From: Girardinichthys multiradiatus
Lineage: Eukaryota; Chordata; Actinopteri; Cyprinodontiformes; Goodeidae
Assembly: GCF_021462225.1 (NCBI RefSeq)
Contig: NC_061804.1
Location: 186,001-250,000 of the forward strand
DNA: 64,000 nt
Reading direction: 5' to 3'
Below are positions 17,301 to 55,947 of the stretch, piece by piece. Under the pieces are notes generated by a model that ran no database searches, was not told the DNA's origin, and saw nothing but the letters and a program-made list of their open reading frames with translations. A program made the translations under genes and the position numbers. Numbering within the stretch: the stretch's first letter is position 1; each line of letters starts with the position of its first letter.

Positions 17301-20300
17301 CACCATCCCCACCAGAACAGTGAGATGCTTCACCAATAAACCCTGGATCACCAGTGACCTGAAGCAACTGCTAAACAAGAAGAAAAGAGTATTCTGGGTG
17401 GGAGATAGGGAGTTATTGAGGACTATGATGAAGCAACATTAAAGTCAGCAAATACAGGGGTAGGACAATAAAACTGAAACACCTGTCATTTTAGTGTGGG
17501 AGGTTTCATGGCTAAATTGGACCAGCCTGGTAGCCAGTCTTCATTGATTGCACATTGCACCAGTAAGAGCAGAGTGTGGAGGTTCAATTAGCAGGGTAAG
17601 AGCAAAGTTTTGATCAAAATATTGAAATGCACACAACATTATGGGTGACATACCAGAGTTCAAAAGAGGACAAATTGTTGGTGCACGTCTTGCTGGCGCA
17701 TCTGTGACCAAGACAGCAAGTCTTTGTGATGTATCAAGAGCCACGGTATCCAGGGTAATGTCAGCATACCACCAAGAAGGACGAACCACATCCAACAGGA
17801 TTAACTGTGGACGCAAGAGGAAGCTGTCTGAAAGGGATGTTTGGGTGCTAACCTGGATTGTATCCAAAAAACATCAAACCACGGCTGCCCAAATCACGGC
17901 AGAATTAAATGTGCACCTCAACTCTCCTGTTTCCACCAGAACTGTCCATCAGGAGCTCCACAGGGTCAATATACACGGCCGGGCTGCTATAGCCAAACCT
18001 TTGGTCACTCATGCCAATGCCAAACGTTGGTTTCAATGGTGCAAGGAGCACAAATCTTGGGCTGTGGACAATGTGAAACATGTATTGTTCTCTGATGAGT
18101 CCACCTTTACTGTTTTCCCCACATCCGGGAGAGTTACGGTGTGGAGAAGCCCCAAAGAAGCGTACCACCCAGACTGTTGCATGCCCAGAGTGAAGCATGG
18201 GAGTAGATTAGTGATGGTTTGGGCTGCCATATCATGGCATTCCTTGGCCCAATACTTGTGCTAGATGGGCGCGTCACTGCCAAGGACTACCGAACCATTC
18301 TTGAGGACCATGTGCATCCAATGGTTCAAACATTGGATCCTGAAGGCGGTGCCGTGTATCAGGATGACAATGCACCAATACACACAGCAAGACTGGTGAA
18401 AGATTGGTTTGATGAACATGAAAGTGAAGTTGAACATCTCCCATGGCCTGCACAGTCACCAGATCTAAATATTATTGAGCCACTTTGGGGTGTTTTGGAG
18501 GAGCGAGTCAGGAAACGTTTTCCTCCACCAGTATCACGTAGTGACCTGGCCACTATCCTGCAAGAAGAATGGCTTAAAATCCCTCTGACCACTGTGCAGG
18601 ACTTGTATATGTCATTCCCAAGAAGAATTGATGCTGTATTGGCTGCAAAAGGAGGCCCTACACCATACTAATAAATTATTGTGGTCTAAAACCAGGTGTT
18701 TCACATTCATTGTCCAACCCCTGTAGGTGTACAAGAAGAAGCTGGAGAGCAGCTCCAGCAAAACAATATTAGAGAAGTTAGGTCAGGGATGAAGAAGATC
18801 ACAGGCTTCAAGGAGGAGAATTGGACAGATGGAGGTCTGGACAGAGCCAATGAACTGAACACATTCTTCAATAGGTTGTGTTCCAGACCAACCTCAGCAT
18901 CCTCCTCTCTTGCCAGCAGCCAAACAGACATTCCATCCTCCTTTGACCCACAGTTTGCCTGTCCCACCTCAGATATTTTATTTTCCACCTCAGCCATGGA
19001 CCCTTCTGCTTCTACAGGTTGAAGCTGGTGCCCTCTTTGAAGATGCCATCAAACACCTGCTTCAACAAACCCACTGTCATCTGGACAAAGCCAGCAGCAC
19101 TGTGAGGATCATGTTCTTTGATTTCTTCAGAACATTTAATACAATCCAACCTGATTTACTTTGTCAGAAACTCCAGAAGACTCAGGTGGAGGCCTCAACA
19201 ATCTCCTGGATCAAAGACTACCTGACAAACAGACCACAGTTTGTGAGACTGAAGGGTTGTGAGTCTAACCAGGTAGTCAGCAGCACAGGAGCACCACAGG
19301 GGACGGTACTCTCACCATTCCTCTTCACTCTGTACACCTCAGACCTCCAGGACCAGACAGACTCCTGTCATCTGCAGAAATACTCGGATGATTCTACAGT
19401 TGTTGGTGGATCAGAGATGGAGAAGAAGCTGAGTACAGGAAGGTAGTGGACCACTTTGTGGCATGGTGTGGAAACAATCATCTCATTTTGAACGTGACTA
19501 AAACAAAGGAGATGATTGTAGATTTTAAGAGAAACAGGAATAAGTCAAAAACTATTTCTATCATGGGAGAAGAAGTGGAGGTGGTGGAGGAGTATAAATT
19601 CCTCAGTGTTCACCTGGACAACAGACTAGAGTGGAGATGCAACTAAAGCAGTCTACAAGAAGGGACAGAGCAGACTGTACTTCTTGAGGAAGCTTTGGAC
19701 CTTCAGTGTTTGCAGCAAGATGCTGCATATCTTCTATAAGTCTGTTGTGGAGAGTGTGATCTCTTCTACCATCATCTGCTGGGGAAGCAGCATCAGAACC
19801 AGGGTCTTAAAAAAGCTCATCAAGCTGATAAAAAAGGCTGGCTCTGTTCTGGGGACTCCCCTGGAACCTCTGGAGATCATTGTGCAAAGAAGGATTCTTC
19901 ATAAAATGAAGAACATTATGGAGAACCCTGAACATCCTCTTCATCAGACTGTCCTACAACAACAGAGTGTCTTCAGTCAGAGGCTTCTTCAGATCTGCTG
20001 TAAGACGGAGCTACAGGAGATCCTTCCTGCCCACAGCCATCAGCATCTACAACGACTCTTTGAGGAAACCTTCATAATATGAGCTACAACAACATTTAAT
20101 TTCCCTTTGGGATTAATAAAGTATTTTTGAGTTGAACTGAATTTATTCTGTTAGCATAATGTTAGCATCATATTAGTCAATTAGCCCTACCAGATGCAGT
20201 CTTGCAGCAGCTCGGTTGGAGAACAGCACGGCCCTCTCTCTGCTAAAACAAACAGGACATAAAGCCAGTGCCTCTGTGTAGCTTCGCTCTGCCTCCTTCC

Positions 20301-23300: not shown

Positions 23301-26300
23301 ATTTAAACCACTAGGTTTTACCTCATACCAAAGCAGTAGGATTGTTAGTGACTAACTTTTGTGGAAGCAAAGGCAAGATTTCTCCACTCGAAAGAGTTGA
23401 ATTGAGAATTACCACAAAAGGAGATTTTTCTGTCACCCTACTGAGCAGAATAATCCAGTATTTAGAATACCCTAGGTATTTATATACTGGACCAAATTTA
23501 AATAAAAAAATGGGAAAAGGGTGATTTAAATACACTAAAATTAATAATAATGTAAAGATTGGAAATTTATGGAAGCACAGGATCAAATTAAAATATTAAA
23601 ATGAAAATATTTAGATAAATGGATAACCACATATCATTATGATGGTCGTTTAAACTCTAAAAAATTAGTTAATCTATAGGATGCAATAATTAAAAGTACA
23701 TTAAAAGTAAACGTGATTTAAGAAAAATGGACAAAGAAGGTTATGAGGATGCAGATTATTGGTTAAAAATAACTAAAAAGAGAGAGATGTGATGCAGGAG
23801 ATAAGAATGGACGTTTTTGTGGAAAGCAGAAAAGGTCAGAGGGCTAAGAAGTAATTTTTGATGAACTTGTAAAGTAGAACAGCAGGACAGAAGAAAGGGA
23901 GTAAAAAGAGTAGGTGGAAAGTTTTTGTTTTGTACCAAAGATCTGATGAGGTTTGACAGGATAAGATGGACTAAAATGAGTCCCTTTGGTGAATAAATCC
24001 ATCCCCACCATGGCTGTACCTCATCTATGTTTTATTTGTGTTTATTTTTTATTATTATTTGAGATGCTGAAGGCTGTTGATACAGTTTATCACGGAGGTT
24101 CATGGCATGACACGGGTTTTTTCTGTGTAACCTTAGAAAATATTTTACTCTTTTTAATAGCCAGAGTGAAACAAAAAGACAAATAACCTTTTGAAGAATA
24201 TGGGATTAGACTGACAAAAATGTTTAAAATACATAGTGGTCTACAAGAAGATGAAGCAAGGAGCTTATTAACAGCAGTTTAAAAAAAATGCACTACATGC
24301 TGGTTAAAGGGATGCAATTAATACCTGGGTAAGGAGATATTTTATAGGGTTCCCCACAGCAAATCTAGAAGACTATGTAAATCATGCCCTCCATGCAGAA
24401 AAAGTTATGAAGGAGATAAAAAAAAAAAAGGAAATAAATAAATAAATAAACAATTAAATAGGCAACACCTTTTTTTAGCAAGAAGAAGAAGAGCAGATTT
24501 ATTATTAAAACAACAGAGGAAGAGAAAAATTTAGAGGCAGAGAACAAAACCGCAGGGGTCAGAGAAGGAGTGAGCAGAGGAGATTACAGACAAATACACA
24601 TCAGGGTGTTGATGTTAAAAAAGGAGTAGGACCACCTTATTACCACTATTAACTGGATGTTCTGAATAAACCATCCCTAAACGTAGGGACAGCTTTACTA
24701 ACAGAAGGAAGAAATGTCATTACTCAACTACAAGATCAGATGACACCAGATGATCTACATATTACCATGTGGTATAAAAATACTCCTGGACAAGATAAAA
24801 CTTATGAAGAAGTATTAAATAAAGTAACCCCTATAAAAGTCATGGTAACTTAATGAATACAGAACCTAGTGCATCCACAGGATTAACTAGAAAATTATTA
24901 TTTTGGACAGTGACAGTGCAGGAAGAGATACATTTACATACAAAACAACAATGAGAAATATTCCTTACTGAACAGGAGGAACAGTTTTTTGAATAGATTA
25001 GAGCAAAAACAGAATACAGGCCCAGAGTAAAATAAAACCCTATGAAATATGATGCTCGTGAAGGAATAAAACCAGTAATAAAGGATTTAATAACTGCAGG
25101 GGTGATAATAAAATGTGAGGATTCACCATTTAACACCCCCATTTTCCCAGTTAATAAACAAGCTCCATCAACAGGAAAGATAGACAGTTCTGGTTTGCAT
25201 TCACCTTTGAGGGACAAAGATATACTTATACCAGACTACCTCAAGGTTACTATGAAAGTCCAACTATATACTTTCAGGTAATGAGTGCAAGTATGGCCAA
25301 GTTTGACCCTCCAGGAGGTAGTCAGGTTTTACTATATGTTGATGATGTGCTATTAGCCTCTCCTGATGAGGAGACTTGTAAAAATGATACAATAGCATTA
25401 TTAAAACATTTAGCAGAAGAAGGACACAAAGTCAGTAAAAAGAAACTTCAATTGTGTAAAAATGAGGTTAAATACTTAGGTCATAATTTTAGCGCAGGGG
25501 GACACACAATTGTAGAAGAAAGAAAGACTGCAATATTACAAGTTCTAAAACCAGTAACAAAAAAGCAAATGATGTCCTTCCTTGGACTAACTAATTATTG
25601 TAGAAACTGGGTGCCAAATTATACAGAAATAGTAGCTCCATTAAACCAACTAATGTATGAGGAAGAGCTGAAAATGACGTCTGAACTGAAATGGAGTGAA
25701 GCCAGTACTGCTTTAGCATTACCAGATTATAGTAAACCGTTTGTTCAGATGGTAGATTGCAAGGGACATTTTATGACTTCAGTTCTGGTTCAACAACATG
25801 GAGATAAAATGAAAATAATAGCCTATTTCTTTTCAAAACTAGATAGTGTTGCGTGTGCGCAACTATATTATGTGAGAGCTGTAATTGCTGCAATAGTGTT
25901 GTTTCACCTTTTAACCTTAAGAGTTTCCCATGCAGTTTCAGCATTAATACTGCAGAATTAGTAGAAAAAGAAATAAATAAATTAGAAGTGATTTGCAGGA
26001 TCATGAAATAGTTTATGTGAATGATTTCTCTAAAAAGATGAGAGGGAGAAGACACAAACAGGATATTCATTGGTGACAATGGATATAGTGTTAGAAAAGA
26101 TGCAACAACAAAGCTCACTACAGGAGATAGAAATGTGGAAAAAACATGGAGCTGCATTAAAAGATGAAATCTATATATGACCAGATAATAAACCTGTCCT
26201 ACCAAAGAACCTATAAATGGAAGCAATATTGAGCCATCGTGTTTCATAATGTCTCAACAGGGGGGAATAGTAGGACAGATATATTAATATTATATAACAT

Positions 26301-29300
26301 ATGGATTAAATTCTAAAAATACTTATTAAAAAAGTTTTGTAAAACATGTTTAGCATGTGTAAAACATTATCTACAAGGGAAGTTAAGACAACGAAGGGGA
26401 CAATTTGCAAAACTAAGAAACCCTTTTCAAACAATTCATATGGATTTTATTGAGTTAAATCAGAGTGAAGGGAAAAAGTTTTGTTTAGTCGTTATAGATG
26501 CATTTTCTAAATGGATAGAACTATTTCCAACTAAACATTACAACTACCTCAGGGTTAACACCCTATGAAACGTTATGTGGAAGACCATACAGATTACCAC
26601 AGTTAAAAAATAAGTGGGAGTTAGATGAAGAAGCTAACCTAGTTGATTATATGAGGAGTATGTTAGAAACCAACAGAAATAAATTTAAACTAATGAGGAA
26701 TGTTCTATTTCCCAGCAGGAAAACTAACTAGTGAAACCAGGAGATTGGGTGTTAATAAGGAGTGTAAAGAAGAAGCATTGGTATTTCACCTAAGTGGGAG
26801 GATCCATATTAGTTATTATTAACCACTGCAAGGGCAGTAAAATAACTGAGAGATCAACCTGGATTCACCTTACACATTGTAAAAAGATCATTTTGGTTGA
26901 AAGCTCCGTCAGGGGAAGTGATTTATAGACTGATAATAGGGTGGACCCAGACATTTAGAGTCTGGAGAGATCCGAAAGTCAGTGAAGACAATTAAGACAC
27001 TGGAACCATTTAGAGGAGTGAAAATTTCAGCCAAAATGATTTCTAGATGGATGAACAATGCTTTCCGATGCTGGGTGGTTATATATATTTTTTCCTCATA
27101 TTGATTTTTATTTTTCTGGGAACCAGTCAAGATAAATTAGAATGTAACAACACCTGCTATGAGTCATATGAAACAAGTAGCGCTAAATCAAGGTAGGTAA
27201 GATAACCTAACTATGTGTACTAAACAAACTTCTTATACTTATGGTATTCAAGTGTGCGTGAAATCTAAAACCATAGCTGTGGTGCTGATCCACTCATTAG
27301 CTTGACTAAATGAGGAAGGAAAGGACAGGATTATAGAAGTTATAAATGGTACTTAACTAATGATAGAAGAGACACCTCATGGTCCATGATGGTAGCTGAT
27401 GAAGGAAATAATTGGACACCAGAGTGGTGCACCACTGCTTATGCTAGTTATTAAAAGAAGTTGTTTAAGTTCCATAAAGCTGATAATGTAATCCAGGTAA
27501 CAAAGCGAAGAGAGTAAAAATTATGTTAGGAAACTTAACCACAGATGACTAAGTTCCAGGTTATTACAGGAGTATCAGGAACAAATAATAACTGGTTATT
27601 GATGGTAGAACAAGCGGCTAACATGACTAAAAGAGATTGTGTTGTGTGTTTGGGTTCAAGGCTTTTATTATAAATAATTCCAGCTGTGATACCACAACTC
27701 TGTGTGATGGAAGAAATAAATCAAACTAATCCTAATGAAATGTGTAGCACAAGGATTCTGTTTTTCCTGTAATTAGAGCAGATAAGGATAAATCAGTTTT
27801 CCATAAGCGAGTCACCACTGGAAACTATACATGTATAAATATGACAGAGAGAGGTAATAAATTGGGAAATGTCATTGCAGTATGGTGTATTACAATTGTA
27901 AAATTAAATAAGTGTTTTAAACTAGTCTCTAGAGGAGATATTTGGTGGTGGTTGTTTGATTGATCACCTTCAAAAGTAACAGGACTCTGTGCTTAATTAC
28001 TTTATAGTTATATCCTATGTTAGTAGATGAAGTAACAGATGGACTATTTAGTGTTAAATCCACATGATTGGTGTGATAGGAAGTGCAGAGAAGTAGCTTG
28101 GCAGACTGAGGGAGACTCTACATACATTGATGCTATAGATGAAGATAAATTAACTGATCAAGTAGCTGCAAGATTTGAATCAAGTATCTGTTGGTGGTGT
28201 ACGTTGAACAGAAACGTAGACAGGATCAACTATATTCACTACAATGTACAAAAAACTAAGAAATTGGACACAAAGCGGGTTTGAAACTGTCCATGACTAA
28301 TTGGCTTCAACTTCCCTGATGACATTCCAGAATAGAATTGCTTTGGACATGTTGTTAGCTGAAAAAGGAGAAGTTTGTGCTATTTTTGGAGAAAAATGTT
28401 GCACATTCATACCTAACAACACTGCTGGCTGATGGCAGCCTCACTAAAGCCATAGAAGGTTTGAGATCTTTAAAAGGCAAAATGAAGGAGCATTCTGGAG
28501 TAGATACCTCAATGTGGGACTCCTGGCTGGATGTGTTTGGGAAGTATAACATTTTAGTATCATCAGTAATAATTTCCTTTGCAGTGTTTGCTGAAATTTT
28601 GACATTGTGTGGATGTTGTTGTATTCCCTGCCTTCGTTCTCTGCTTAACCGTCTCATCACAACAGCTATTTCTCCTATGGAAAGCAGAGTTACACAACTC
28701 TATCTGTTACTTAAACATCAGGATGATGAAGATGATGAGGATGGGACTGACCACTTTTCTGACCTGTACTCAGATCCATTTCTATATGATTCTGTGATTT
28801 AAATGTCAGTAAGTACCTCTAAGTATAATTGTCTTTGTACTCATGAAAATAATCTTACAGTTAAAAAATATCTGACAGAAGTGGCTGTTTATGTGATATG
28901 AGAAAATGAGCAGATATTAGATAAACAGGGGGAAATGTTGGAATATTGAATATAGATTTATCTTATATTTTCTCCTATTCTTTAACTTGACTATTTGATT
29001 TTATAACCTTTCATGATGTTTGTGTGAGTAACGGATGTGTGAGTTTTGTTTGCAGGCAAGGATCATAAATGGAGCAGAGAAGGAAGCAGTCCAGTTGAGG
29101 AGGTCATAAAGATGAAGGCTGATTACACTCAACAAAAGGCACAACTGACCCTGGAAGCTGAAAGAGGACTGTGGAAATGTGTTGTTAATGTATAAAGCTG
29201 TTTATGACTTGTTTACGATGCAGCTGTTGTTTTCCCATCCTTTAGAGATTAATGTTCTTTGTAAAATAGGGACCCCCGAAAGATAATAAAAGAAAGGTGC

Positions 29301-32300: not shown

Positions 32301-35300
32301 TTGTACACGGCGCTCTGTCAAAATGTTTCAGTACGACTGATAAACTACAAAGCCGCACCGCTTGCAGCATTACGGCTACCGTAGTCAGGGGCGTCGCCGA
32401 AGTAATAGCGGTAAACACCTGTACTGTGCTTACTCCTAGTCCAACACCACTTGTGTGTGTATAACGTTTGAATGTACTGTTGCAGGAATTGCCTGAACTA
32501 TATGTGATTAGAAGCTCAGTGTGTGGGGTGTATGTTTCGTGTGTGTGTATGGAAGATGTTGACATTACTCCTCCGGACAGAGGTGGCGCTGTGTGCTGCC
32601 GTAGCTGAGAATCAAGAGTGAAGGAGTGACGTCGGTATTATTGTGTGTTTGGGGTGGGTAGAGACGGCGGCCGGAGCAGCGGTGTATGAGTCTGTAAGCC
32701 CTGTGTTTTTACGTGCTGCAAAGTCATTAAAAAGAACCCCGAATCTCGTCAACAACTCAGTGTTTTGATGCTGTTTCTTCATGCTCAACTCAGCAATGTA
32801 TGAGTGAGGGAGTTAACCCCGAGGAAACTAGTAACTTCGGCCCTGGAGAAAGCGTCTCCCCTGTGTCATCAGACTACGGTCAGGGGACAGAAACAGGAAA
32901 GGTTAACAGTACTAACGTTTGATTTAGTGCATCAAACTGTTTCTTTTACGTGTTTACTGAATTTCACGTTTTAACTAACGTTTAATTTCAACTTCAACTT
33001 CATAGACTCCAATGCATTCCTAACGTGCGGTTGGCTCTATTCAATAGAATTCTATGTAGAGGAGACCTTACCATGAGAGTGAATGGAGTTATCAGAACGC
33101 TGGTTTGTAGTGTATTAATAAAGTTTGACTGACTGACTTTGTTGACATTCTCTTTAGCTCCATCTAGTGGATGCATAACGCAACCCCAGTCAAACGTTTG
33201 ACTGCAGTAGCTTCTATTCTATGTGCCTTATAATCCGGTGCGCCTTATAGTGCGGAAAATACGGTATATTAAAGTAGATTTGGAAAAATCCATCAGCCAG
33301 TCTCTGGATGAACAAAAGTTATGTAAGGAAATCTGTATCTCAGATATTCAATTTATTAGGCCTTTGATCAAGCAGCTGTTTTAAAAGCATCAATATCAGA
33401 ACGTCTCAGACAGCCTGGTGGGAATATCTCAACATGAACAGATCTTCAGTTCTCCCAGACATCAACCCAAATAAAAGGTTGTTAACGTTTCCACCTGGAA
33501 CAGTAAAGCAATAAGTCATTTAGAGACATATCTGATGAAAAAGATTTCCTACACTTTAATGTTTTACAAGAATAATATGGTATTGATAAAAGTCAATTCT
33601 TTGAATATCACCAACTAAAATCTATTATCCAGTCCAAATTTAAGAATAACCAAATGAACATAGAACTTCCTCTAGTAATAACTAGCTTCTTTAAACTTCA
33701 ATCTCCAAGTTTCAGTGTCCTGCATGTTGCTCTGTGCCTTTTTGGCCTGGGGGTTGCTGCTTCTGTGCCTTGCTGGCAACCTATTTCTGGGTTGGGCTGG
33801 GACTCCTGTGGGCTTCTGGAGACGGGTCTACCTGCCTGTCTCTCAGTTGCTGTGGATTCCAGGCCCTCTACTGTTCTCACCACACTTAAAAATGTACACT
33901 TCCAGGTGACAAAGTCACGCTCAAACACACACAAACCCACTTTTTGCAGCACATATGCCCACCTACTATCACAAACTCACAATTACTCAAAATGGTCGAA
34001 GGTCATACAAACACAGGTTACTATAACATCCATGTGGCCTGCCTACTCTGATGCTGGACTGAATCTGGATATAAAAACGTTAATCACGCAGTTAGAATTT
34101 TGTTGTGAAATATCCTTTTTGGAAAGCAAAACTGCCCTGGCACATGTAGGCAACCATCTGCTCCATATAATGAGCCTGAAATGCTGCGACAGGACTCATT
34201 ATAACAAAAAGGCTAGAAAATTACTTTTCAAACAGAATTGAGCTGAAACACCTTTCTTTCAATTGATACAATATCTGATAATATTTTACTGGTTTATATG
34301 AGAGCTTTTCACTAGTGTGTGAATTGTTTTCAGCATCATATTTGAAAGAGTTTAATTTTATACATGTATATGTAAGCTAATTCTGAGTTATGTCCCTAGT
34401 GGCGCCCAATAGTGATCTATCAAAGTCTTAATGGATCTTGGCGCTGCTTCTGACAAAGTTATCACAACTCAAAAAGTGGGTGGGGCTGTATGGTACTTTG
34501 CTAAACTGATCTTACTCGGTACACCAGGAATACTTTGTCTCAGTTAGCAATTATAAATCTGAGTAAACAAAAATTACATGTGGGGTACCTCAAGGCTCTA
34601 TTCTGAGGCCACTTTAATTCAACATCTATATGATCCCACTAGGTCAGATTATGGAAAATATCTCTCTGTTAACTAGAGTCAGCAACCAGCTGCTGGATGG
34701 GTTGGAATTTCCTCCATCTTAATACAATTATTGTTTTTAGTCCCAAAGGCTCCTGGTGGGAAATCAGGATTCAACTAAACTCAGCGACACTAAAGCCTAC
34801 AGGGGTTGGACAATGAAACTGAAACACCTGTCATTTTAGTGTGGGAGGTTTTATGGCTAAATTGGACCAGCCTGGTAGCCAGTCTTCATTGATTACACAT
34901 TGCACCAGTAAGAGCAGAGTGTGAAGGTTCAATTAGCAGGGTAAGAGCACAGTTTGGCTCAAAATATTGAAATGCACACAACATTATGGGTGACATACCA
35001 GAGTTCAAAAGAGGACAAATTGTTGGTGCACGTCCTGCTGGCGCATCTGTGACCAAGACAGCAAGTCTTTGTGATGTATCAAGAGCCACGGTATCCAGGG
35101 TAATGTCAGCATACCACCAAGAAGGACGAACCACATCCAACAGGATTAACTGTGGACGCAAGAGGAAGCTGTCTGAAAGGGATCTTCGGGTGCTAACCCG
35201 GATTGTATCCAAAAAACATAAAACCACGGCAGCCCAAATTACAGCAGAATTAAATGTGCACCTCAACTCTCCTGTTTTCACCAGAACTGTCCGTCAGGAG

Positions 35301-38300
35301 CTCCACAGGGTCAATATACACGGCCGGGCTGCTATAGCCAAACCTTTGGTCACTCATGCCAATGCCAAACGTTGGTTTCAATGGTGCAAGGAGCACAAAT
35401 CTTGGGCTGTGGACAATGTGAAACATGTATTGTTCTCTGATGAGTCCACCTTTACTGTTTTCCCCACATCCAGGAGAGTTACGGTGTGGAGAAGCCCCAA
35501 AGAAGCGTACCACCCAAACTGTTGCATGCCCAGAGTGAAGCATGGGAGTGGATCAGTGATGGTTTGGGCTGCCATATCATGGCATTCCCTTGGCCCAATA
35601 CTTGTGCTAGATGGGCGGGTCACTGCCAAGGACTACCGAACCATTCTTGAGGACCATGTGCATCCAATGGTTCAAACATTGTATCCTGAAGGCGGTGCCG
35701 TGTATCAGGATGACAATGCACCAATACACACAGCAAGACTGGTGAAAGATTGGTTTGATGAACATGAAAGTGAAGTTGAACATCTCCCATGGCCTGCACA
35801 GTCACCAGATCTAAATATTATTGAGCCACTTTGGGGTGTTTTGGAGGAGCGGGTCAGGAAATGTTTTCCTCCACCAGTATCACGTAGTGACCTGGCCACT
35901 ATCCTGCAAGAAGAATGGCTTAAAATCCCTCTGACCACTGTGCAGGACTTGTAGATGTCATTCCCAAGAAGAATTGATGCTGTATCGGCTGCAAAAGGAG
36001 GCCCTACACCATACTAATAAATTATTGTGGTCTAAAACCAGGTGTTTCACTTTCATTGTCCAACCCCTATAGATGTCATTATGGACTCAGCTAAAGTCTG
36101 TTTCCCATGTACAAATCAAGTTTTAGCATTGTAATTTGATCCTCTGTTATTAATCTTACGGTTTCTTTATTTTCCTGTAATGTTTAAATTTTAAGCATTA
36201 CAGGAAAATAAAGAAACAGTAACATTTAAGGCTTAATTGTTACTGTTTCTTCTTTTGATGTATTGCTTGTCTTTTATATCTGTGTTCCTCTCTTGCTCTC
36301 GGTGGAAAACATACACATTTTCTCTCTCTCCCTCCCTGCTGATCCCTGCTTCTGCTTTTTGTCTGTATTTTTCTCAGAGCCTCGCTTTGCATATCCTCCA
36401 AACTGGTAAATTATGGATTTGATCAGCTGGACTCTCAACGTAATTGATCAAATTTCTTTTCAACAGGAAGACAGGGTAAAGGAGAACCTCTTGTCCAGAC
36501 GGGACGTTCTTCTCTGGAAACACAATGGATTCTTGGCAGCAGTGGAAGATTGTGTTCCTGACTACGATGTCGGTCGAGGACGTAGAAAATGTGTACATAT
36601 TTGGACTTTTGATAACAGGATTTCTGCTTTCTGGAGTTGGTGGTTACCTGGCTTATCGAGTGATTTGCAGAACGTGGGCGGCTGTTCAAAGCTTTCTAAA
36701 GCTGCCTGCGATGTTAGATGGAGTCTGTAGAGCGATCAACACTCAGACTGAAATGTTAAGAGAACAGAATCGCAAGCTGGACACGATTCTTAAACAGAAT
36801 CACAGCCTGGCAGCGGTTGGACTCAGAGGTTAAAGGATATAATCTTGGAGAAGTTGTACGTTCCAGATCTGCAGAAAGTACCAGAAATTTGGCTATTTGG
36901 ATTCACAATTGAGACACACCAGTAAAACTCTTAAGTTGGTTGGAAATTCACAACTGCCTGAACCACAACATTTATTGTTTTTCTAAATCTGGCGTCCCAA
37001 CGTGGCCATGGCAACTTCTGCTAACTGGCTATTGACAAAATATCTCTTTAATGTTATATAAACACGACGCTCTTCCCCAGCACTCCCCTACCAGCTGTGT
37101 GCTGATAGGACAATGATTGATAAAACTTCCACCTCTCTTCTCAAGGACAATGATGCTTCTATCAGTGTTGACAGACTAATTCTTGCAAACACACTCAGAC
37201 TTATATATTCACACCGTCAAGTTTCCACCGTACCCTTGCTGAATCTTTAGTTATGTGTGTGTTGCTTACCCCTGCTGAGTTTTTTTGTACTATTTCACTC
37301 TATTCTGCTAAGAATAGAGTCTGAAATATGATTTTTTTTCCAACTTACTTTACCTAAATGTCTGATTTCATTACTTTTCATAGATCTTCAGATTTCTCAG
37401 AAGGATTACCATCAAAAGGCAAATATTATTAATATTTAATTAGTTTTTCATTGATTTTTAGTTTTATCAGAAGGATTACCAGCGAAAACCAAATATTATT
37501 AGTAATTTGAAAACAACTGCCTCATACCAGCGACCTCAAGGATTAATATTGTAATTTTTCTTCTAGCACCAGATGAATTCCTTACCACAGAGGACTTAAT
37601 GAGCTAATTACTTCTATTAGAAAGATTGGAGTAGAACCAGCTCTTACCAAGGATTATTAATGTCATTTGATTTGTTTGTCTGTGTTTGATTTTCTGTATC
37701 ATTGTAATGTTTTTCCTCATGTACATCACTTTGAGTGCCTTGTTGCTGAAAAGCGCTTTATAAATAAACTTGACTTCCGTTAATTATCTGTGAAATATTT
37801 CCAGTCAGTTTGTGTATAGCTGGTGCCTTACGAATACAGGTACGCACTAATTTTAATTCAGTTCAATTCAGTTTGATATATATAGCACCAATTGACAACA
37901 CGTCGTCTCAAGGCTCTTCACAAAAAGTTAGGAATGGTGCGGGTTGTTGGGGAGGTCAGATTAAACTACTGAGTGTTAGAGTTTTGGCATTTTACAGAGG
38001 GATATGTGTAGGGGTACTAAGTAAAATAAACTGATACATTTTGTCCACGTAGAGCCCACAGATGGTCATTGTTATACTAAAAACCACAATGACTGGGATA
38101 CCTCTCTCTGTCAGAATGATTATAACCATTGGAAAAGAGAAGGGGTCATACAGGTAGCAGAAATAGAGGGTGTGTTTAAACAGGTTTCAACTGGTATAAA
38201 CAGGGTTAAACTAGCTGGTTTAAATGGGTATAAACATGTATGCAGAGGTGTGAACGGATATAAATTCATGTACAGAAGTATAAAATGTGTTACCTCCTTT

Positions 38301-41097: not shown

Positions 41098-42515
41098 TTA
41101 ACCGCGAAACAGAGGTTTAAGCTTTGGCCACGATGAGAAGTAATGAATCACATAGTCAGGAGCATTTTGAGATTCCTTCACAATAACACTCACTGTTGGA
41201 TCTTTATTGACCTCTGGGTCATCTGCAGATATTTCAGGCTGATCCACACCAGTTAAGGCCATTCCTCCTCTGACTTGAAGAGAAATCCTGGTCCATTTAT
41301 CCACCTCCTGCATTTGTGGAACTCTTCAGCTCTCATACCTCTGGACGCATCATCATCTGCAGGGTTCTCCTTGGAGGAGACATGTCTCCACTGATTTATA
41401 TCTGTCGCTTCTCGAATGACAGAGATTATGTTTGCAACAAAGGTATTAAACCTTCTGGTTTCATTGGAGATATATTTCAGTACTGTCATACTATCAGTCC
41501 AGAAAACAACCAATTAAAGCACTGCTTGGAAAGAGAGTGGGGGATCGCTTCATCTCACTTCAAATGTTTTCGAGAAAGTTCTTCTAACAACAGTTTAACT
41601 GGCGTACTGAAGGGAACCACCATTCCCAAAGGATCATACAGTGAACTAACAACAGATGAAATGCCCCTACTGGTCTGTGGACAATCCTGCACAGAGGTTC
41701 TGAACTTGAACTTATCAGTTTCAATGCTCCACTGAAAACCCAGTGCTATTTCCATTTCGAGTTGATCTGTATCCATATCCAGATTGTTGATTTCCTTTGC
41801 TCTCCTTTCCTTGGGACTGACATAAGCACTATGTGACTGTTGCTGGTCAATAGTGAAAGCTTGAATCCTCCTTTAGTGCAGATATCAGTCAGCCTCTTCA
41901 CCATGTGCACTGCATCTTCTTCTGAAGCAAGCGGTTTTAAACAGTCATCCACATAAAAGTTACCTTTGATTGTTTCAACCACTTCAGCTGGAAATTGCTG
42001 AGCATGATCATCTGCTGTTCACTGCAGGACAATGAGTTTGTAAGATCAGGTCCTGTAGAAACTGGTTGTTCAATCATGCTCTTTTATCTGTTGTTCCACA
42101 ATCAAATACGACTCTCAACTTGCCTTTGGTGGGATGATGCACTCCACAATGAGGAATGTACCACACCTTTCCATCACTTTTCTCATCGCCCCATCTGCAG
42201 GCGTAATTTTGGCATATCCTTGTTCTAGCATGTTGTTCACGCATGCAGTGTATTCCTCCTTGTAGTGACCATCCTTTTCAAATCTCCTTCTGAGGCTCTG
42301 GAGGAGCAGCTCTGCAACACAAACGTTATTAGGCAAGCAGGGATTTCTTGTCTTGAAAGGTAAGTCAATGTGATAATGATTTGGTCTGGTTGAGCTCTTA
42401 ACAATGTCCATGAAAGGCAGATTGTCTCTGGACATTTCCACCTGCTCCTCTGATAGTCATTAATTAAGGTCATGATTTCACGGTTTGACCAGCATTTCTT
42501 TAAGATGTTCAACAA
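41098..42515 (-). pseudogene. BEL/Pao reverse transcriptase and RNase H
   Basis: RT catalytic NFYVDDCLKPLASEEDAV lies in ORF 41746-41982; FQWSIETDKFKF and SSLYDPLGMVVPFSTPVKLL follow; RNase H-like VVFWTDSMTVLKYISNETRR with FNTFVANIISVIR occurs at 41253-41513. The order and wording are characteristic of BEL/Pao. Frames change at about 41750, 41555, 41520 and 41300. Confidence 0.8.
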
Positions 42516-42869
42516 AGATCCTATTGGCTGTTACAGCAGTACAGTTGTTTTTGTTTCTGCTGTTACTTCCAATGTGCAAGGGACCATTTATGACCCAGCC
42601 AACTTTGGTCTTCACAGCATAAGGTCCTCCATCCACACCGTTTATCAACTCCCATGGCTCTAGAACATTCCTATCATTAGTTCCACATCAGCATCAATAT
42701 TGTAGAGCTTCACAGATTTAAGATGAGGCCACTGATCAACATCTACTTGTTGAGGAAGAAGACTGGTGAAAATGGCATGGTCTTTTGATTCAAAACATCA
42801 GGATACTCCAGGAAGTCATTTACATCCAGACCAGAAACTTCCAACAAACTTATTTGTGCACTGACAATC

Positions 42870-43330
42870 TTATTTTAACTCATTGTCCTTCACATAATAT
42901 TTGTCCTTCCCCCTTAGGTTTAATCTTTTAGCCAAGGTTTCTTTACAGAATGTACCTGAACATCCAGGTGCCAGAAATGCATGTGTTTGCACCATTTTAT
43001 TATTCTTTTGGTTCTTAACTTGAACTGCAACAATAGAAAAGACTGAATCATTATCATGACCGGCACCAATATGTCTGAGTGGTAGCAGTTCAGAGAGGTT
43101 AACATGAGAGCTTGTTGTTTGTTGGGTTGGTTCTGAGAATACGCCTTGTTCATTTTTTCCTATGTGAAGAACCTGGTGTGCCTTTGCTGACACACATTGT
43201 AATCTAGATGACTCTTACAGTCTTTGCTTGTTTGACAAACCTCAGAGAACCAAAACAATCCCCCCTTCCTTGATGAAAGTCAGCTTATCCTGGTGCCTTT
43301 TAGTTTTGAACAGCAAACAATTATCCAGTA
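42870..43330 (-). pseudogene. BEL/Pao zinc-knuckle and protease region
   Basis: Cys/His-rich remnant (CQTSKDCKSHLDYNVCQQRH, about 43170-43240), then ORF 42870-43193 with LLPLRHIGAG and HAFLAPGCSGTFCKETLAKR, where the usual retropepsin DxGS/T is replaced (APGCS). Confidence 0.6.
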
Positions 43331-43630
43331 AATGATTATTTTGGAAACAAAATAAGCAGCTAAGGCGAACAGCAGGTCTGGTCTTGTTTTCCGTTGTTTG
43401 AGATTTGACTCTGGAATTGTGCTGACATTAGCACCAAGACTGTTTCCCCTTTTCCTTTGCTTGGTGGGATTGGAAACTTTAAAGCTGCTCCCAACTTTGA
43501 GTCTTGAATGTTAAACACTGGATCTGATCAGGGCCGTAGCCAGACTTTAAAAAATACTGAGGTCCACCACTCATTATCTGCCTGCACATCAGTTACAATG
43601 AAGACCAAAACTTAACTAAAATGGCAGCAT

Positions 43631-44505
43631 TTATTTAAAACGTGAGTGACTTGAATGTGACATGTATTTGTGTGCGTGAATCCATGGGGAGCTCATCATC
43701 TGAAGCAACAGAGACTCTGCACAACCATTATGACTCACTGAAATGACATGAGTTAGTTCATATGAATGTTCACACTGCAGAAACACATTCAAAACACAAG
43801 ACTGCTCTTTGACCATTTTGCTCTTGCAGCTCATAAGCAACAACTTTCCATTTTTGTCTAATTTATCTGTAAGTTTCAAAACAATCATTTTCATGTTTTA
43901 GGGCAAATCCAACTCCTTCATGTAAAGAACTTGTGTTAGATTTGAACATCCTTGAAGAAAAAGAGAGAATGATTGAAGCCTTGTGCCATCTTCCCCTTTA
44001 ATAGGTCTCCAGCTCATAATCTTCTGCATATAAGCAGAGGCAACCTTGTATTCATTTCCAAATTGTTCTTCAAGAAGATGTTTGGATATGGAATAACCCT
44101 GCTCAAGAGGCAAGCGCTTACAACCATGCACCGAGTCTCTATGCTGCCCCCTAGTGAACTGCTCTAAAAATGTGAACAGTCGCTCCAGTTATCAATTTTT
44201 GCCTCAACTGCATTTTCAAAGGCATTCATAAACGACCTGTACTGTAGGGAGCCTCCATCAAACAAGTATATTTCTGGCAGGGAGGACAAAGTGTAGGTTT
44301 TGTTTCACAGGTATGGTAGTGATGTCATTTTGTCCTTGCATGATGTTAAAATAATTTTTGACAGTTCTCAGTCAAAGGAGGAGCTTAAAGCTGCTTTTGT
44401 TATGTTGCTTGAACTGAAGCATCAACCTTTATCATCATCTCATCCATCTGAGGCTGCTTCTGTCTTAATTTGGGCCTGACAACGTGTAGGTCTGGTGCAG
44501 AACTT
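43631..44505 (-). pseudogene. BEL/Pao gag, 3' part
   Basis: Frames include CKRLPLEQGYSISKHLLEEQ and FGNEYKVASAYMQKIMSW, a typical BEL gag helical region, with stops around 43900 and 44250. Confidence 0.6.
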
Positions 44506-45057
44506 TGTTGAAACACCCCCCTCAAGGGGTGTTCTGCGTGTTCGTTTATTCACCGTAAGCTGAAAGAATTCACAAGACATTAGAATAAATCACACGGAGA
44601 CAGCTGTATGTTATTCAAGAACCTGGCCAGGGGAAGCTCTCTGTCATGTGATCTGACCACACACCGAGACGACTTTGGAGCTTCTCACTGGGCACATGGT
44701 TTTTATTAAAACACATGAAAATGAACAGCCCCTGTTTACAGTTTTTTCACACATATGGTTAACTAAACACATTTTCCTGCCTACCATATTAGGACATGTT
44801 CCTCTCTCCCAGCACCTGCACTCTGCTTTTCTGCTGATATGAGAAGGGAGTGCTTGGCCAGTTAATCTTTTTCATATCCTCTCCCTATCCCTACAGTTCT
44901 TCAGTATTTTTCTGCTTCACCACACTCAAGGCCAAGTTTGTGCAACAACACTTCTGCAGGCCACAATGTCTTCTACTAACACAGGTTATACATTTTATTT
45001 TCCACACTGGTTATGAACATAATAATAATTAATGCACACACATAATATATCTCCACA
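44506..45057 (-). repeat. ERV2 3' LTR
   Basis: On the - strand it starts tgtggagatatattatgtgt and ends gtttcaaca. Reverse-strand AATAAA occurs near 44705. Confidence 0.9.
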
Positions 45058-45572: not shown

Positions 45573-47959
45573 TTACTCTTCGTCCTCCTCCTCATTAGCA
45601 TCAACCGCAAGCAAAGGCATCATATGGGAAGGAGGAGGTGTGGTTTTCCCTTCAATGGTTGTAGTAATAAAGCGAACAATCAAAGATCTTATACATGGTA
45701 CACAGCAACATCCACAGGTAACCATAATAGCTACAAAAACAGCAATGGATATAAACAATGACATAATCAACCCTTTCCAGTGTTCAAACATGCCCGTCAT
45801 CCAGTCTTCGAACGGATTGTCTATTCCTGAGTGCTCATGCATCGTGGCCGAAAGTGTTTTTAACCCTTCTAAAGCTTTTGAGACGGAACCATCAGGGGCG
45901 GTATTATTGGGTATGAAAGTACAACGCATGTCTCCAAACATAGCACATACGCCCCCTTTTTCAGCTAACACCATGTCCAGTGTCATCCTATTTTGTACTG
46001 CCATAAGGGATGTGGGGCCAGTTTGTTCAGCTAGGCCCTCCACAGCATCTCTAGTGAGGTTGGCCATTCGAAGAACATTGTAATGTATGTAATTTATGCG
46101 GTCCACATTTTTATTGGGAGTTACCGGAAAAAAGGCTCCAATAATGGGAAGGTTTTCAAAGCCTGCTGAGACTTGGTCAGCCAATTTATACTCATTGGGT
46201 ACGCCTCGGGGGACTCCAATTGCATCAATGTAGGAGCCTACGGTCAGGTCAAATGCTTTTGTGCTCCGCTTCATGACATGTCTATGCCGTCGCCTAGTGA
46301 GAGCCGTGCTTTGTGCATGTTTCGAGGGAAGATACTTAAAGTCTTTACCTAACATAAGGAGAGGTGCCTGCAACCTAACCATGGCACACATTCCAATAGT
46401 ATTATTTTGAATCCTAGTTAATAGCCGATGTCCTTCACAATAATAGTAGAGTCCTGATCTTGCTCAGGGACGTATCACTGAGCCTGGCACCGTGATGTTA
46501 CACCAATCGCGAGGAATTTGCCCTACATTTGCCTTTGGTGTTGTGGAAGTGAAGGTAAAGCAAGTGTATGTGCCATTTCTTCGTTGAGGGGTGAAAGGGC
46601 CTGCTCTGGTATTATTGGCAATGGGTGGGAACAGACTGGCCAAAGTGGTACAGTTTGTAGGAGTAGCCACTGTAGTCAGCTGTAGCATACAGCTATAACC
46701 CCACTGGTCCTCTGGATACAGAGGAGCAGGATCAGTTGTCAAATGTGGTCTGCCTGATGCACAGGCCACACAGTCAGATTTAGATTGTTCTTTAGCTGTT
46801 TGAGCTATCCATTTAAGCCATAAGTTATCATCTGAATATCCCGTAGCCATCTGAATAATATCTAAAGGTTGTAGGGTGGAATAATCTATTTTGATGGTTT
46901 TACCGTGGTCAGTGGTGGTGTTTTTATTGAAATTAGTGACAAATTTAAGACAGAAACCCGTTTTCTGGTTCTTATTAAGCTTAACATAACACTTCTCTCC
47001 CCAGGTGGTGATCCGACGGCGGCCACTGTTCTACACCGTGAATCTGCTGCTGCCCAGCATCTTCCTGATGGTGATGGACATTGTTGGTTTCTATCTGCCA
47101 CCGGACAGCGGAGAGAGAGTTTCCTTTAAGATCACTTTGCTGCTCGGCTACTCTGTTTTCCTCATCATTGTATCCGACACTCTGCCTGCCACGGCCATTG
47201 GAACGCCACTGATATAACTTTAATCAGTCCCTGAGGATCATACCCCATATACCATCCTGTGTTGAAGTGAATACCTAGAGCCAGATATACTACTTCGTTC
47301 CATTGATGGGATTCTTCCAACAAACCCCGTTGTAGACCCTTTATGGTCAGTAATAAGGGGATCTTAACATCTTCGCCTTTCCCTGGGAGCACTCCACGGG
47401 TCAGAAAGAATTTTTCAGAGTGAGCTTTTTGTTGTGTGTTCAAGGAAGATTTGGTGGGGATCCAGGTGCGTCCTCTCCATGTTATAACCGCTCCCCACGT
47501 CCCTCCGCATAGAGGTGGATTACCAGACTTTGTTACCCTATTGGTGGTGTTATCCAGGCAATAAACTGAGGTCTGTTCGTTGGCACATAAGTAAAAGTCT
47601 ACTTTTGTGAAATGAGTGAACTCGTCGCCACAATTTATGACGTTGCAGAGGTCAATTTGGAAGGTGGTTGTCGATCCTAGGATGTAATTTAACTCAATTT
47701 CGCCAAAATCTCCAAGGCACTTGTCTGTGGGAGGAGGGGAGACGCTCCGCCTGGATATTTTATTTTGATGATGACTGGTACATGTTCTGAAAGGCAGTTC
47801 ACAATGCAAACCTAGAATCAATGTAACAATGAAAAATGCCAAAACACCTATACCTACCATGACCCAACCCTTAAGGGGTCTGGGTCCTAGATTTTGACCT
47901 CCCATACTTTTCAAAGGTACCTGCAAAGGAAGATAAGGATTAACAATATGGTGAAACAC
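45573..47959 (-). pseudogene. ERV2 envelope gene, interrupted by host-like sequence
   Basis: The surface-subunit frame starts within 47959-47215 with a membrane segment near its N-terminus (VGIGVLAFFIVTLILGL). It is interrupted at about 47004-47217 and resumes from about 47000 to 46464 in another frame (YSDDNLWLKWIAQ). An in-frame TGA at 46466-46464 precedes the transmembrane ORF (45573-46391) with a basic RRRHRH region, [23 protein letters not shown] (first Cys of the CX6CC pair reads Arg), a membrane anchor (LFISIAVFVAIMVTCGCCC) and an acidic tail. Entry function is not expected from this copy. Confidence 0.85.
47005..47214 (+). pseudogene. 5-HT3 receptor (HTR3-like) M1-M2 fragment inside ERV2 env
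   Basis: Seventy codons without a stop, + strand, antisense to env. They read [19 protein letters not shown] (M1), [19 protein letters not shown] (M1-M2 link) and [17 protein letters not shown] (M2), ending TAIGTPLI, the pore region of serotonin-gated 5-HT3 channel subunits. A pyrimidine run plus CAG (46993-47004) sits immediately 5', like a splice acceptor. The 3' end stops where I expect a receptor exon to end. The ligand-binding domain, M3 and M4 are absent, so it cannot make a receptor. Env-like coding flanks it on both sides. Confidence 0.85.
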
Positions 47960-48298
47960 AAAATACCTTTTTATTATTATTTCTTTAAAAGTTCAGAGTG
48001 TTCAGTTCAGTTCTTGGTGGGAGTGCAGCTACGACCACCAGTGAAAGAGAGGAAAACTCAGTCACATCCGCCTCTTCTGTGTGATGTCCTGGTCTTCACT
48101 CACAAGTGTAGACTGACCTGGAGCTAAGTGGTCTCATCAGGGGATTATTCTACCCCTATTTGGTGGGACCACTGATTTAACGGTGCACCTAAGGTGTAGA
48201 CTAACCTTTAGGTGCAAATGAACGTTTTCTCACCCTAGGGGATTATTCTGCCCCTTGAATTGGGTGAGAAAGATCTTCTGGTGTGCTGGTGTTGTCCA
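47960..48298 (-). other. ERV2 pol-env interval
   Basis: Contains an imperfectly repeated unit on the + strand ('ggggattattctacccct' at 48138 and 'ggggattattctgcccctt' at 48239, each following a 'tctcaccctagg/tctcatcagg'-type block). No further ORF recognised. Confidence 0.4.
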
Positions 48299-49075
48299 TC
48301 AGGTTCTGCTGGACCTCTGGCAGCGATCTCTGTGGTGCCTCTGCTGCTGCACACTGGCTCCAATGATACCACGTGTCTCCTTTGCCCTTGACCTCACCGC
48401 ATGTGAGGTTCTCTCTGTGACCTGGAATGGACTCGTCCACCTGGGCTCTGACCACTTCCGTTTGATGACTTTCAGAAAGATCCACTCCGCGTCTGAGGTG
48501 GTGGCTCGAGCCTCGGATGGTTGGGTGGCCACCTGTTTTGAGAATGCTGCGACCAAGCTGTGGAGAGATCTATAGTAATCACGGTGAAACATAGATTGTT
48601 CACATTCAGTCAAAAAAGATAACCTGGTATGTGGGCCTGGAAAAGGTCTTCCAGTCTGTAGTTCATGGGGTGTCAACCCATGTCTCTGGCTCACTGAGCT
48701 TCTTACTGACATCAAAGCTAAAGGCAATGCTGTGACCCAAATCATTTTGGTCTGTGCACAGATTTTAGCCAATTTGGTTTTGATTGTCTGGTTCATTCTT
48801 TCCACCTTCCCCTGAGATTGGGGGTGGTACACTGTTCCAAAGGAATGTCTCAGTCCCAGGAACTTTTCAACCTCTCTAAGTTCTTCATTTTTGAAATGTG
48901 TGCCATTGTCTGACCTGATTTTTGCAGGAAAACCGTGCCTGGGGATGTAGTGATTAATCAGACACTTCACCACTGTTTTGCTGTCTTCCTTTTTTGCTGG
49001 CCAGGCTTCTGGCCAACCGGTGAACGCATCCACACACACCAAAAGATATCTGAACCCATTCACTCTCTCAGTCAT
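48299..49075 (-). pseudogene. ERV2 integrase catalytic core
   Basis: 258 codons with YLLVCVDAFTGWPEAW (first Asp), IRSDNGTHFKNEEL (second Asp) and YHPQSQGKVERMNQT (Glu), a complete DDE triad, then a C-terminal DNA-binding region. Separated from the zinc-binding part only by the in-frame TAG at 49100-49102. Confidence 0.88.
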
Positions 49076-49099
49076 TTCTGTGTAGTCTATGATGATTTC

Positions 49100-50338
49100 C
49101 TAACCTGCTACCGGGTCCACAGGGAACTTACCTGGTGCAGGCTTCAGAGTGGGTCTCACATTGAATTGTTGGCAGGTGCTACACGAGCTTATCCAATGAC
49201 CTACCGTCTGTTTCAGGTATGGATGCCACCAGTGCTCAAGACTCTTCATCATTTGTGCAGTTCCTGCATGTCCCGGTCCATGTGCTTCTTCCAGCGCTGC
49301 TGTGGTCAACCCTGGGGGTAGGATGGGACGTCCGTCTGGACTTCTCCATAGTTCATCCTGGTCTTTTCTTCCCCCTCTTGCCTTCCAGACTGATTTCTCT
49401 TCCAGTGAGGCCCCCTTTTGCAGTCTACTCACCTCCTCCAGAGTCGGTTCTGGTGTCCATTCAACTTCAGAGTTCATCAAGATGTGTATGGGCAGATATC
49501 CAGCTTTGGTTTTGGCTGCTTGGTCTGCAGCTTGATTTCCTTGAGTCACCCTAGTGTAACTGTTATCATGTCCTTTGCATTTTATGACCGCTACTTCTTG
49601 GGGAAGTAGTAGGGCCTCAGCTAATCTTCTCATTTCTTGCTCATGTTTAATGGGTTTCTGTCCTGCTGTTCTAAACCCTGTTCTCATCCACTGCTTCAGT
49701 TCCACGTGCGCTGCTCCAGTGACATAAGCTGAGCCTGTGTAGATGTTCACTTTTTGTCCTTCCCCTAGTTCTAGGGCTGCTATTACTGCTAGCACCTCTG
49801 CTCTCTGTGCTGATTGGGTGTCTGTCAGCCCTTCTGCCTTAAGAGTCACAAAGTTCGTCCCTGTGTCTTCCACCACCGCATCGGCTGCTTTCAGACCCTC
49901 TGTGTCATGTCTAAAACAACAGCCATCTGTGTACAGGTTTCTTGCCTCTGTCAGTGGTTCTCCTTGTAGGTCTGATCTGATTTTCTCACTTACCTCAACT
50001 TTTTCGGTGCATACGTGGGGCTCTCCTTCTGTCATTCTGTCTGCCATGTTGATCCCTTCATGGCTGTAGATGATATTTGGCGCCTCCAGCACCTTACTCA
50101 ATCTCTGTTGTCTCAATGGTGAGAGTGTGAAAGTTTTGGAATTGACAAATGCCACTACCCCATGTGATGTTAAAATATGTAGTGGATGTCCCATCACCAC
50201 ATGGGCTGTTTTTTGAATTATTTTTGTCAACCCTGCTGCATGTCTGGTACATTCATGGTGTCTTTGTTCCGTGTTGTCAAGCATCACGCTAATATACATT
50301 AGCACTGTTCTTACTCCCCCTTTTTTCTGGAACAGCAC
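49100..50338 (-). pseudogene. ERV2 RNase H and integrase N-terminus
   Basis: RNase H motifs NLYTDGCCFRHDTEG, AQRAEVLAVIAALELGEGQ and NIYTGSAYVTGAAH, where the usual Asp of the TDS motif reads Gly. The integrase HHCC zinc-binding domain follows (HGPGHAGTAQMMKSLEHWW; SSCSTCQQFN). The ORF ends at TAG 49102-49100, in frame with the next ORF. Confidence 0.87.
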
Positions 50339-51488
50339 ACCGTTTACGGTGTGCTGTTACAGAAACATCCAGGTGAAAGGGCAATGTGTAGTCTGGATGT
50401 GCCAAGTGAGCAGCTTGGGAAAGGCTGGTTTTAAGAGCAATAAATGCTTCCTCTGCTTCTGTTGTCCATTCTAGAGGCACTGTCAAATGGCGCAAGCCTT
50501 GTTTCTTCACTAAGTCACGGAGTGGGCCAGTCAGGTCAGTGTATCCTGGAATAAATGACCTGCTGTATCCGGTGAGTCCCAAGAAAGAAAGCATGTCCTT
50601 CACCCGCACCGGTTTTGGATGAGAAAGGACAGCAGATTGATGTGAAGGGGATATTCCTGTCCCGGGCTGAGAGATTACCCTGCCCAAGAAATCCACCTGT
50701 TTCCGGCAAATTTGTAGTTTGGCTTTGCTGACCTTGTACCCAGCTTTAGCTAGGTGTGAGAGTACCACAGCCGTGGCCTCCAAGCATTCAGAAACAGTGG
50801 GTGTTGCCAAAAGAATGTCATCCACGTATTGAATCAATGTGGTGTTCGGTGGGAGGGGACAGTCTTGGAGGGATTCCTTAAGGACCTGATTAAATATTCC
50901 TGGTGACAGAGCAAAACCCTGCGGCAAACGAGTGTAGCGGTACCTGTTTGACTTATATGTGAATGCAAAAATATCTCTGCACTCCTCAGCTAGAGGCAGG
51001 CAGAAGAAAGCGTTGGCCAGATCGATGCAGGTGAACCATGCATGTTCGGGGTTTAGATTGGTAAGAGCAACATAAGGATTGGGCACTGGAACTGTAGGAG
51101 TGGAAAGTGCTGCATTTACAGCTCTCATGTCATGGGCCATTCTCCATTTCCCAGTGCCCTTCTTTTCTATTGGTAAGATGGGTGTGTTCCAAGAAGAGCC
51201 GTCAGCTGGTTCCAGCACCCCAGCGTTCCACAGGCCTTCTATGGTGTCAGAAATTCCACTTTCGGCTGCTGGTTTGTGAGGGTACTGGGATTTCCAAATG
51301 GGTCGGTCAGTGTTAAGCTGGAAAGTGATAAGAGAGCAGTGAATGAGTCCCACATCCGTGGGGCCCTCAGCCCAAAGTGAAGATGGCATGCTCTGAACTA
51401 CAGCTGCAGCCATTGGATGATCTGTTTTTTCTCTGCCATGATGTCTTTCAAGTTGCACATGTTCCAAGGTGCCAACGTCTGTGGACAT
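50289..51488 (-). pseudogene. ERV2 reverse transcriptase
   Basis: A 399-codon frame with GTGKWRMAHDMRAVNAA, FTCIDLANAFFCLPLAEECR, RLPQGFALSPGIFN and catalytic LIQYVDDILLATPT, then the connection region SFLGLTGYSRSFIPGY. It loses frame at about 50331-50358 at a perfect palindrome. Confidence 0.9.
50331..50358. repeat. Perfect 12-bp-arm palindrome in ERV2 pol
   Basis: Arms aacagcacaccg and cggtgtgctgtt around a ttta loop, located where the RT frame ends and the RNase H frame begins. Confidence 0.9.
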
Positions 51489-51507
51489 GTTCGTAATGCG
51501 GTAGGTG

Positions 51508-52323
51508 TTACATGAGGGCTAGGGAGCGTTTTAACACTCCTCCCAGCTCGCGAGCTTCGTGAGCAGGGTGGAGCGCTAGTGAAACATGGGGTACACCATC
51601 AGACCACATTTTAAACCAGTACTCCTGTTCTGTAGACAGCTGCACGGAGGCTACGACACCTTCAGGGGCTACATAAATGTCTGCGGTGGTGATCTCCCAG
51701 GAAGTCCCCTCCAGCTCCTCAGCAAAGCTTTCCTGATAACACTCACAGTTATTCCTGTCATAGAAGAGGGTGACATGTGGCGGGTCAGGGGGAGAGACGT
51801 AGGGCGCCAGGGTCGAGATCCAGGATTTCCACCGAAGGAAGGACGAGAGGATGCCTCCGCCCGCTGTGGTTTCTGGATGTAGGAGGGCCCAATATATGTC
51901 AGCCATAGGGTCAGCCAGGGGTTGTATGAGATACTGTCCACGAGAGAGGCGGGAATTGTTGCCACAGGCTAGTTGAGTTCCATTGGGCAGATGCACAGAC
52001 AGTCCATCAGGTCCACATAAAATTTTAATCAACATGTCTCTGCCCAATAAGTTGACAGGGGTGTCCGCTGACACCAAATAGCTGTGGTTCAAAGTCTGTC
52101 CCCCTATCTCGGTTTTTAGGGGTGTGGTGTAAGGTAGGACCTCTTTAGCCCCAGAAAACCCCATGACAGTGGTAGTCCTTGTGGAGAGGGTGGTAGGAGG
52201 GGCTCGTTGAATAGTTGAGCATGTGGCCCCAGTGTCCACCAAAAAAGGAAGAGTTTGTCCATACACTGTCATGGACAGTAAGGGGTCCTCAGTCCCTTTG
52301 TCCGGGGGGTTCTGTAGGGGCCC
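51508..52323 (-). pseudogene. ERV2 protease
   Basis: Continues the gag frame after the TGA. Retropepsin active site PFLVDTGATCSTIQR, then PVNLLGRDMLIKILC. The ORF ends at TAA near 51508; the RT frame begins about 20 bp later in another frame. Confidence 0.85.
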
Positions 52324-55398: not shown

Positions 55399-55947
55399 TG
55401 TTGGAGTATCCCTTTACCGGGGCCTTCTGCGCGTTCGTTTATTCACCGTAACCTGGAGGAATTCACAACACATTAGAATAAATCACACGGAGACAGCTGT
55501 ATGTCATTCAAATACCTGGGCCCAGGGAGAAGAGAGAGCTCATGTGGTCAGGACACACCGAGATTTCTTCTGGCTCTCACTGGGCTGACTTCTTTTATTA
55601 AAACAAACACGAAAAATGGGCAGCGCCCTTGTTTACAATATTTTCTACACATAGTACACGTACACACTTTTCCGGCTGACCATATTTAGAAAGGCATTGT
55701 CCCACAGCTGCATCCCGTATCTGCTGATATAAGCAGGAAGTAACTCAGTCAGTTGTACTTATCACTAATTTTCACACACTCCTGCAGTTCTCAGTAATTT
55801 TCCACTTCACCATACCCCTGTGAGAAATACTTCTGCAGACCACACAATACACAATGTCTTATACTAACACATGTTACACATTTTATTTCCCACACTGGTT
55901 ATGAACATAGTAATAATAATGATGCACACACATAATATATCTCCACA
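55399..55947 (-). repeat. ERV2 5' LTR
   Basis: Same start as the 3' LTR, ending tactccaaca. It is clearly diverged from the 3' LTR, most densely in the last 35 bp. Reverse-strand AATAAA lies near 55595. Confidence 0.9.

Follow-up and report, generated by a model that had tools for sequence, protein, structure and literature searches.

In human genomes, class 2 templated-sequence insertions lack both a target-site duplication and a poly(A) tract and are interpreted as patches at double-strand breaks; those obtained experimentally range from 73 to 414 bp with a median of 191, and a microdeletion, microhomology or added bases usually accompany the class, according to the parts of that study drawn on here (PMC5110952). 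Host sequence has also been found inside endogenous retroviruses (ERVs), the consulted sections on crocodilian ERVs describing captures of KIT ligand and of nectin3, with six nectin3 insertions in a single species (PMC4299795). Our search for literature on htr3a with an insertion in an ERV env gene returned no htr3a among the matches listed.

The locus described here lies in a 64,000-nt stretch of the Girardinichthys multiradiatus assembly (NC_061804.1, positions 186,001 to 250,000), hereafter the window, which corresponds to C11:186001-250000 in our own-genome search. The minus strand carries a provirus with protease, reverse transcriptase (RT), RNase H, integrase and TLV_coat env domains recognised by Pfam, whose env gene is parted by host sequence with the following arrangement in window coordinates.

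44506 to 45057, minus strand: 3' LTR (TG...CA ends read by eye)
45576 to 46463, minus strand: 3' part of env (transmembrane subunit), behind an in-frame stop (PF00429 TLV_coat, E 5.3e-05)
46467 to 46929, minus strand: middle part of env, which resumes past the insert in another frame (ORF 46464-47030)
46930 to 47219, plus strand: whole insert, 290 nt at its most likely extent, antisense to env, from comparison with the htr3 locus
46930 to 47004, plus strand: 3' end of the htr3a intron before exon 7, 73/75 identical to C11:10093354-10093428
47005 to 47214, plus strand: htr3a exon 7 copy (M1, M2), 210 of 211 nt of the donor exon at C11:10093429-10093639, with one silent change
47215 to 47219, plus strand: TAACT, which most likely opens the following donor intron (GGTAACT in the donor; GG lost), from the BLAST pairing
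47220 to 47992, minus strand: 5' part of env (surface subunit), ending at the insert (ORF 47165-47992; no htr3-locus match)
48302 to 52323, minus strand: interrupted protease, RT, RNase H and integrase frames (PF00077, PF00078, PF00075, PF00665)
55399 to 55947, minus strand: 5' LTR, 75% identical to the 3' LTR (TG...CA ends by eye)

The exon copy comprises 70 stop-free codons on the plus strand, encoding 5-HT3A from ahead of M1 through the whole of M2. Its translation is identical to PDB 8axd chain A at 67 of 70 positions (phmmer E 2.2e-36) and matches PF02932 (E 2.8e-17); chance is excluded as the source of the HTR3 match. These matches, with the TLV_coat domain in the 3' env piece, bear out a sequence-only reading of the DNA, which had recognised an open HTR3 M1-M2 exon lying antisense in env. 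That reading also proposed looking for a parental exon among the HTR3 genes of the species, and this was located, complete with its borders, in the same genome. When window positions 47000-47220 were searched against the 1.15-Gb assembly (72 contigs; counts are lower bounds), at least three places were listed: the window itself, the donor at C11:10093424-10093645 (99%), and a paralog at C11:10080531-10080743 (70%). The insert was the single inserted copy among the places listed, and none of these indicated sharing by several proviral copies.

The full donor stretch, C11:10093354-10093645, belongs to a gene that we provisionally call htr3a-like by its match to 5-HT3A structures, and lies on the same contig and strand as the insert, about 9.86 Mb away. 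The BLAST match spans window positions 46930-47219 at 98.3% over 292 columns, with three substitutions (46960 and 46974 in the intron, 47040 silent in the exon) and one 2-nt gap. It is colinear across the intron-exon border, taking in the final 75 nt of the upstream intron, 3' splice site included, and all but the last base of the exon; the gap corresponds to the donor's GG at the splice donor and includes that last base. In the donor gene the exon is bordered as ctccccag/GTGG...CTGATAG/gtaact (10093429-10093639, 211 nt). Upstream lies an extracellular-domain exon ending AAGTTCCAT/gtgagt, followed by an intron of approximately 0.9 kb; downstream, the next exon begins cttgcag/GTGTGTACTTTGTGG and, together with the preceding G, encodes GVYFVVCMALLVISL. 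With an htr3 exon on either side, the donor exon remains in its own gene, which disposes of the suggestion that the fragment might be continuous with a normal HTR3 gene misjoined at this point. A paralogous HTR3 gene is situated about 13 kb upstream of the donor (C11:10080478-10080759), its M1-M2 exon being 64% identical in protein.

Between the splice borders of its gene, the donor exon encodes TM1-TM2 and extends as far as the TM2-TM3 loop. For exon 7 of human HTR3A, the portion of the source used here gives TM1, TM2 and the TM2-TM3 loop as the encoded parts (PMC8376721). Since the donor splice sites and this description agree, the exon borders that the sequence-only reading had given are correct. 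The pyrimidine run and CAG that it had noted at the 5' edge are the donor's own 3' splice site, and the intron part also carries a branch-point-like TTAAC. Splice-site scoring without the donor, now superseded by the donor match, counted AGs scoring at least as high as this acceptor: 106 of 8792 in the window, 8 of 549 on the antisense strand of the provirus, and 1 of 148 antisense to env, namely the site itself.

Env-like coding had been thought to adjoin the exon directly on both sides, which fails on the low-coordinate side. By sequence, the 75 nt at 46930-47004 is htr3a intron and thus probably foreign to env; the env-like residues read there come from antisense intron whose frame is open by chance, a run of about 25 codons having by simple arithmetic a probability of roughly 3 in 10 of being open. 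The size of 213 bp proposed earlier accordingly gives way to a most likely 290 nt. This length is 2 modulo 3, equal to the frame offset between the env pieces flanking the insert, which is what insertion into an open env should produce. The two adjoining pieces show no Pfam match, and both are called env because they are placed between pol and the TLV_coat piece; the middle part has weak env similarity to a second provirus in the window (27.6-27.9 kb). Comparing the entire window with a 30-kb stretch of the htr3 locus yielded 25 rows, one being the insert and one the paralog's exon (70%), and the other 23 falling at 10-30 kb and 60-62 kb of the window, all outside the provirus; no second htr3 piece inside the provirus appeared in this DNA comparison.

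The left edge is fixed by the donor match, and the right edge most likely lies at 47219. BLAST aligns TAACT to the donor intron after GG, whereas MAFFT places its gaps elsewhere and leaves TAACT unpaired. A TAACT-like match at that place was obtained at 71 of 11119 tested provirus positions (0.6%), and because so few positions match, TAACT is more likely donor than env. Under either placement the splice donor is gone from the copy, and no more than 6 nt separate the right end of the insert from the exon end. The flanks, read by eye, show no target-site duplication of 5 bp or more, no poly(A) at the insert ends, and no microhomology or shared bases at the junctions as drawn, which are blunt; the loss of 2 nt close to the right end may represent an end-joining mark. 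A direct repeat of ATAAC (46986-46990 and 47214-47218) was considered as a target-site duplication and rejected, both copies lying inside the insert as drawn.

The gag, pol and env frames of the provirus are long, with few stops and frame changes as judged by eye. Identity between its LTRs is only 75% (558 alignment columns, 43 of them gaps), and their outer flanks, ACTT and AGTT, fall short of a perfect duplication. Such unlike LTRs together with largely open genes are at odds with a single old integration. The LTR pair therefore probably derives from two related proviruses, which suggests a mosaic formed by recombination between related elements; a pair of two origins is useless for dating the integration. 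In 196 kb of C11 (1-186000 and 250001-260000), queries comprising the LTRs, leader, pol and env pieces, with gag left out, found no DNA match to a near copy of the provirus; weak protein matches occurred in two pieces, one of env and one of env plus RT. The env pattern had no match in viral contigs and 12 matched stretches in prokaryote genome contigs, none confirmed, and the exon pattern matched 55 stretches in viral contigs, again with none confirmed.

Other elements share the window. The second provirus, more decayed, occupies 25000-28800 on the plus strand, its RT being 39% and the transmembrane part of its env 44-55% identical to the first; it was rejected as a stand-in for the empty env site, its surface subunit being too diverged across the junction. 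Three closely similar transposase frames, presumably Tc1-like, lie at 11776-12819 (minus), 17626-18668 (plus) and 34971-35951 (plus), one of them open over 348 aa. Directly beside the first provirus, at 41746-44188 on the minus strand, are retrotransposon frames that we take to be BEL/Pao-like.

The reading that we favor, with a probability of about 0.7, is that the insert is a class 2 templated-sequence insertion, made by break repair in an already integrated provirus. It is favored because of the distant donor, the single listed copy, and the lack of target-site duplication, poly(A) or microhomology described above. A germ-line cell or early embryo carrying the integrated provirus would have suffered a double-strand break within it, and about 292 bp copied from host htr3a (the intron end, exon 7 and the first bases of the next intron) would have closed the break, lying antisense to env. 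The three substitutions and the 2-nt loss parting copy from donor may have arisen later or at joining. Because upstream intron was kept, and most likely the first downstream intron bases too, the template was unspliced, either genomic DNA or pre-mRNA. The insert resembles the class 2 insertions described in the consulted parts of PMC5110952: it is short, matches a distant locus that is itself retained, lacks target-site duplication and poly(A), and is of a size found among the experimental cases. That study also reports templates that are intronic or transcribed. The insert differs in that the human cases are polymorphisms, whereas the present one is known from one fish assembly and sits inside a provirus. 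A transcript can also template break repair, but the signature of that process is the loss of whole introns from spliced templates (PMC12065846), and the insert keeps its intron. Against repair of a break, the position of the right end within 6 nt of the exon end would be coincidence, MAFFT does not pair TAACT with the donor, and none of the end-joining marks usual for class 2 is clear. Because the LTRs are too unlike to date the integration, we can only infer that the insertion came after it.

The foremost alternative, which we regard as unlikely, places the event in reverse transcription: plus-strand DNA would have switched to co-packaged unspliced htr3a RNA and back, leaving an antisense patch. 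A switch of plus-strand synthesis onto sense RNA would by reasoning yield the observed orientation, and neither the few lesions of the provirus nor the divergence of about 1% between insert and donor obliges the insertion to postdate the integration. Two switches are required, however, and the known captures resemble this locus chiefly in placing host gene sequence in a provirus, nectin3 being at the expense of env; in the sections of PMC4299795 used here they are host mRNAs kept as ORFs under purifying selection, nectin3 being multicopy, whereas the insert is antisense, bears an intron and is listed once. Retroviral transduction involves spliced host mRNA free of introns, whereas the insert retains 75 nt of intron. 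The fuller version, in which capture took place in the virus particle by such a plus-strand switch and antisense transcripts of the provirus could act on htr3a RNA, seems to us more doubtful still; if true, it would represent a capture route giving antisense, intron-bearing host patches.

An assembly or library chimera is improbable, because the insert differs by three substitutions and a 2-nt gap from its only close match among the places listed, a difference that a donor allele could still explain; both junctions also lie within one 45.4-Mb contig, and the window contains no N. Templated insertion by LINE-type machinery (class 1) is less probable again. The left junction has a T-rich stretch beside it (GTTTTTATTG) that could have served as a target, but neither a target-site duplication of at least 5 bp nor poly(A) at either end was seen by eye, and these are the class 1 hallmarks given in the consulted parts of PMC5110952. 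The insert is likewise a dispersed copy of part of a gene, as processed (retro)pseudogenes are, and unlike them shows no exon joining, poly(A) or target-site duplication. Capture of one exon whole from spliced or circular RNA, as initially proposed, would suit a right end so near the exon end and is ruled out by the 75 nt of intron and splice acceptor in the same colinear match, the last exon base being missing.

Across 285 aligned bases the insert and donor differ by 3 substitutions (about 1%), and 2 of these fall in the 75 nt of intron; the single silent difference in 210 exon nt agrees with the earlier view of an origin elsewhere and a recent look, and the divergence suggests a recent event. 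The insert parts the env pieces and shifts the frame, retaining a splice acceptor. With the splice donor lost and no other htr3 match in the provirus, no part of the receptor could evidently be made, and the insert is probably dead scrap that does nothing. Any transcript of the provirus would include 290 nt in antisense orientation to htr3a. The case illustrates how an exon copied together with intron sequence can be mistaken for viral exon capture, an antisense-intron frame open by chance having resembled env. Read as break repair, it would be a clean, recent-looking templated patch in the germ line of a fish, with donor and acceptor both known.
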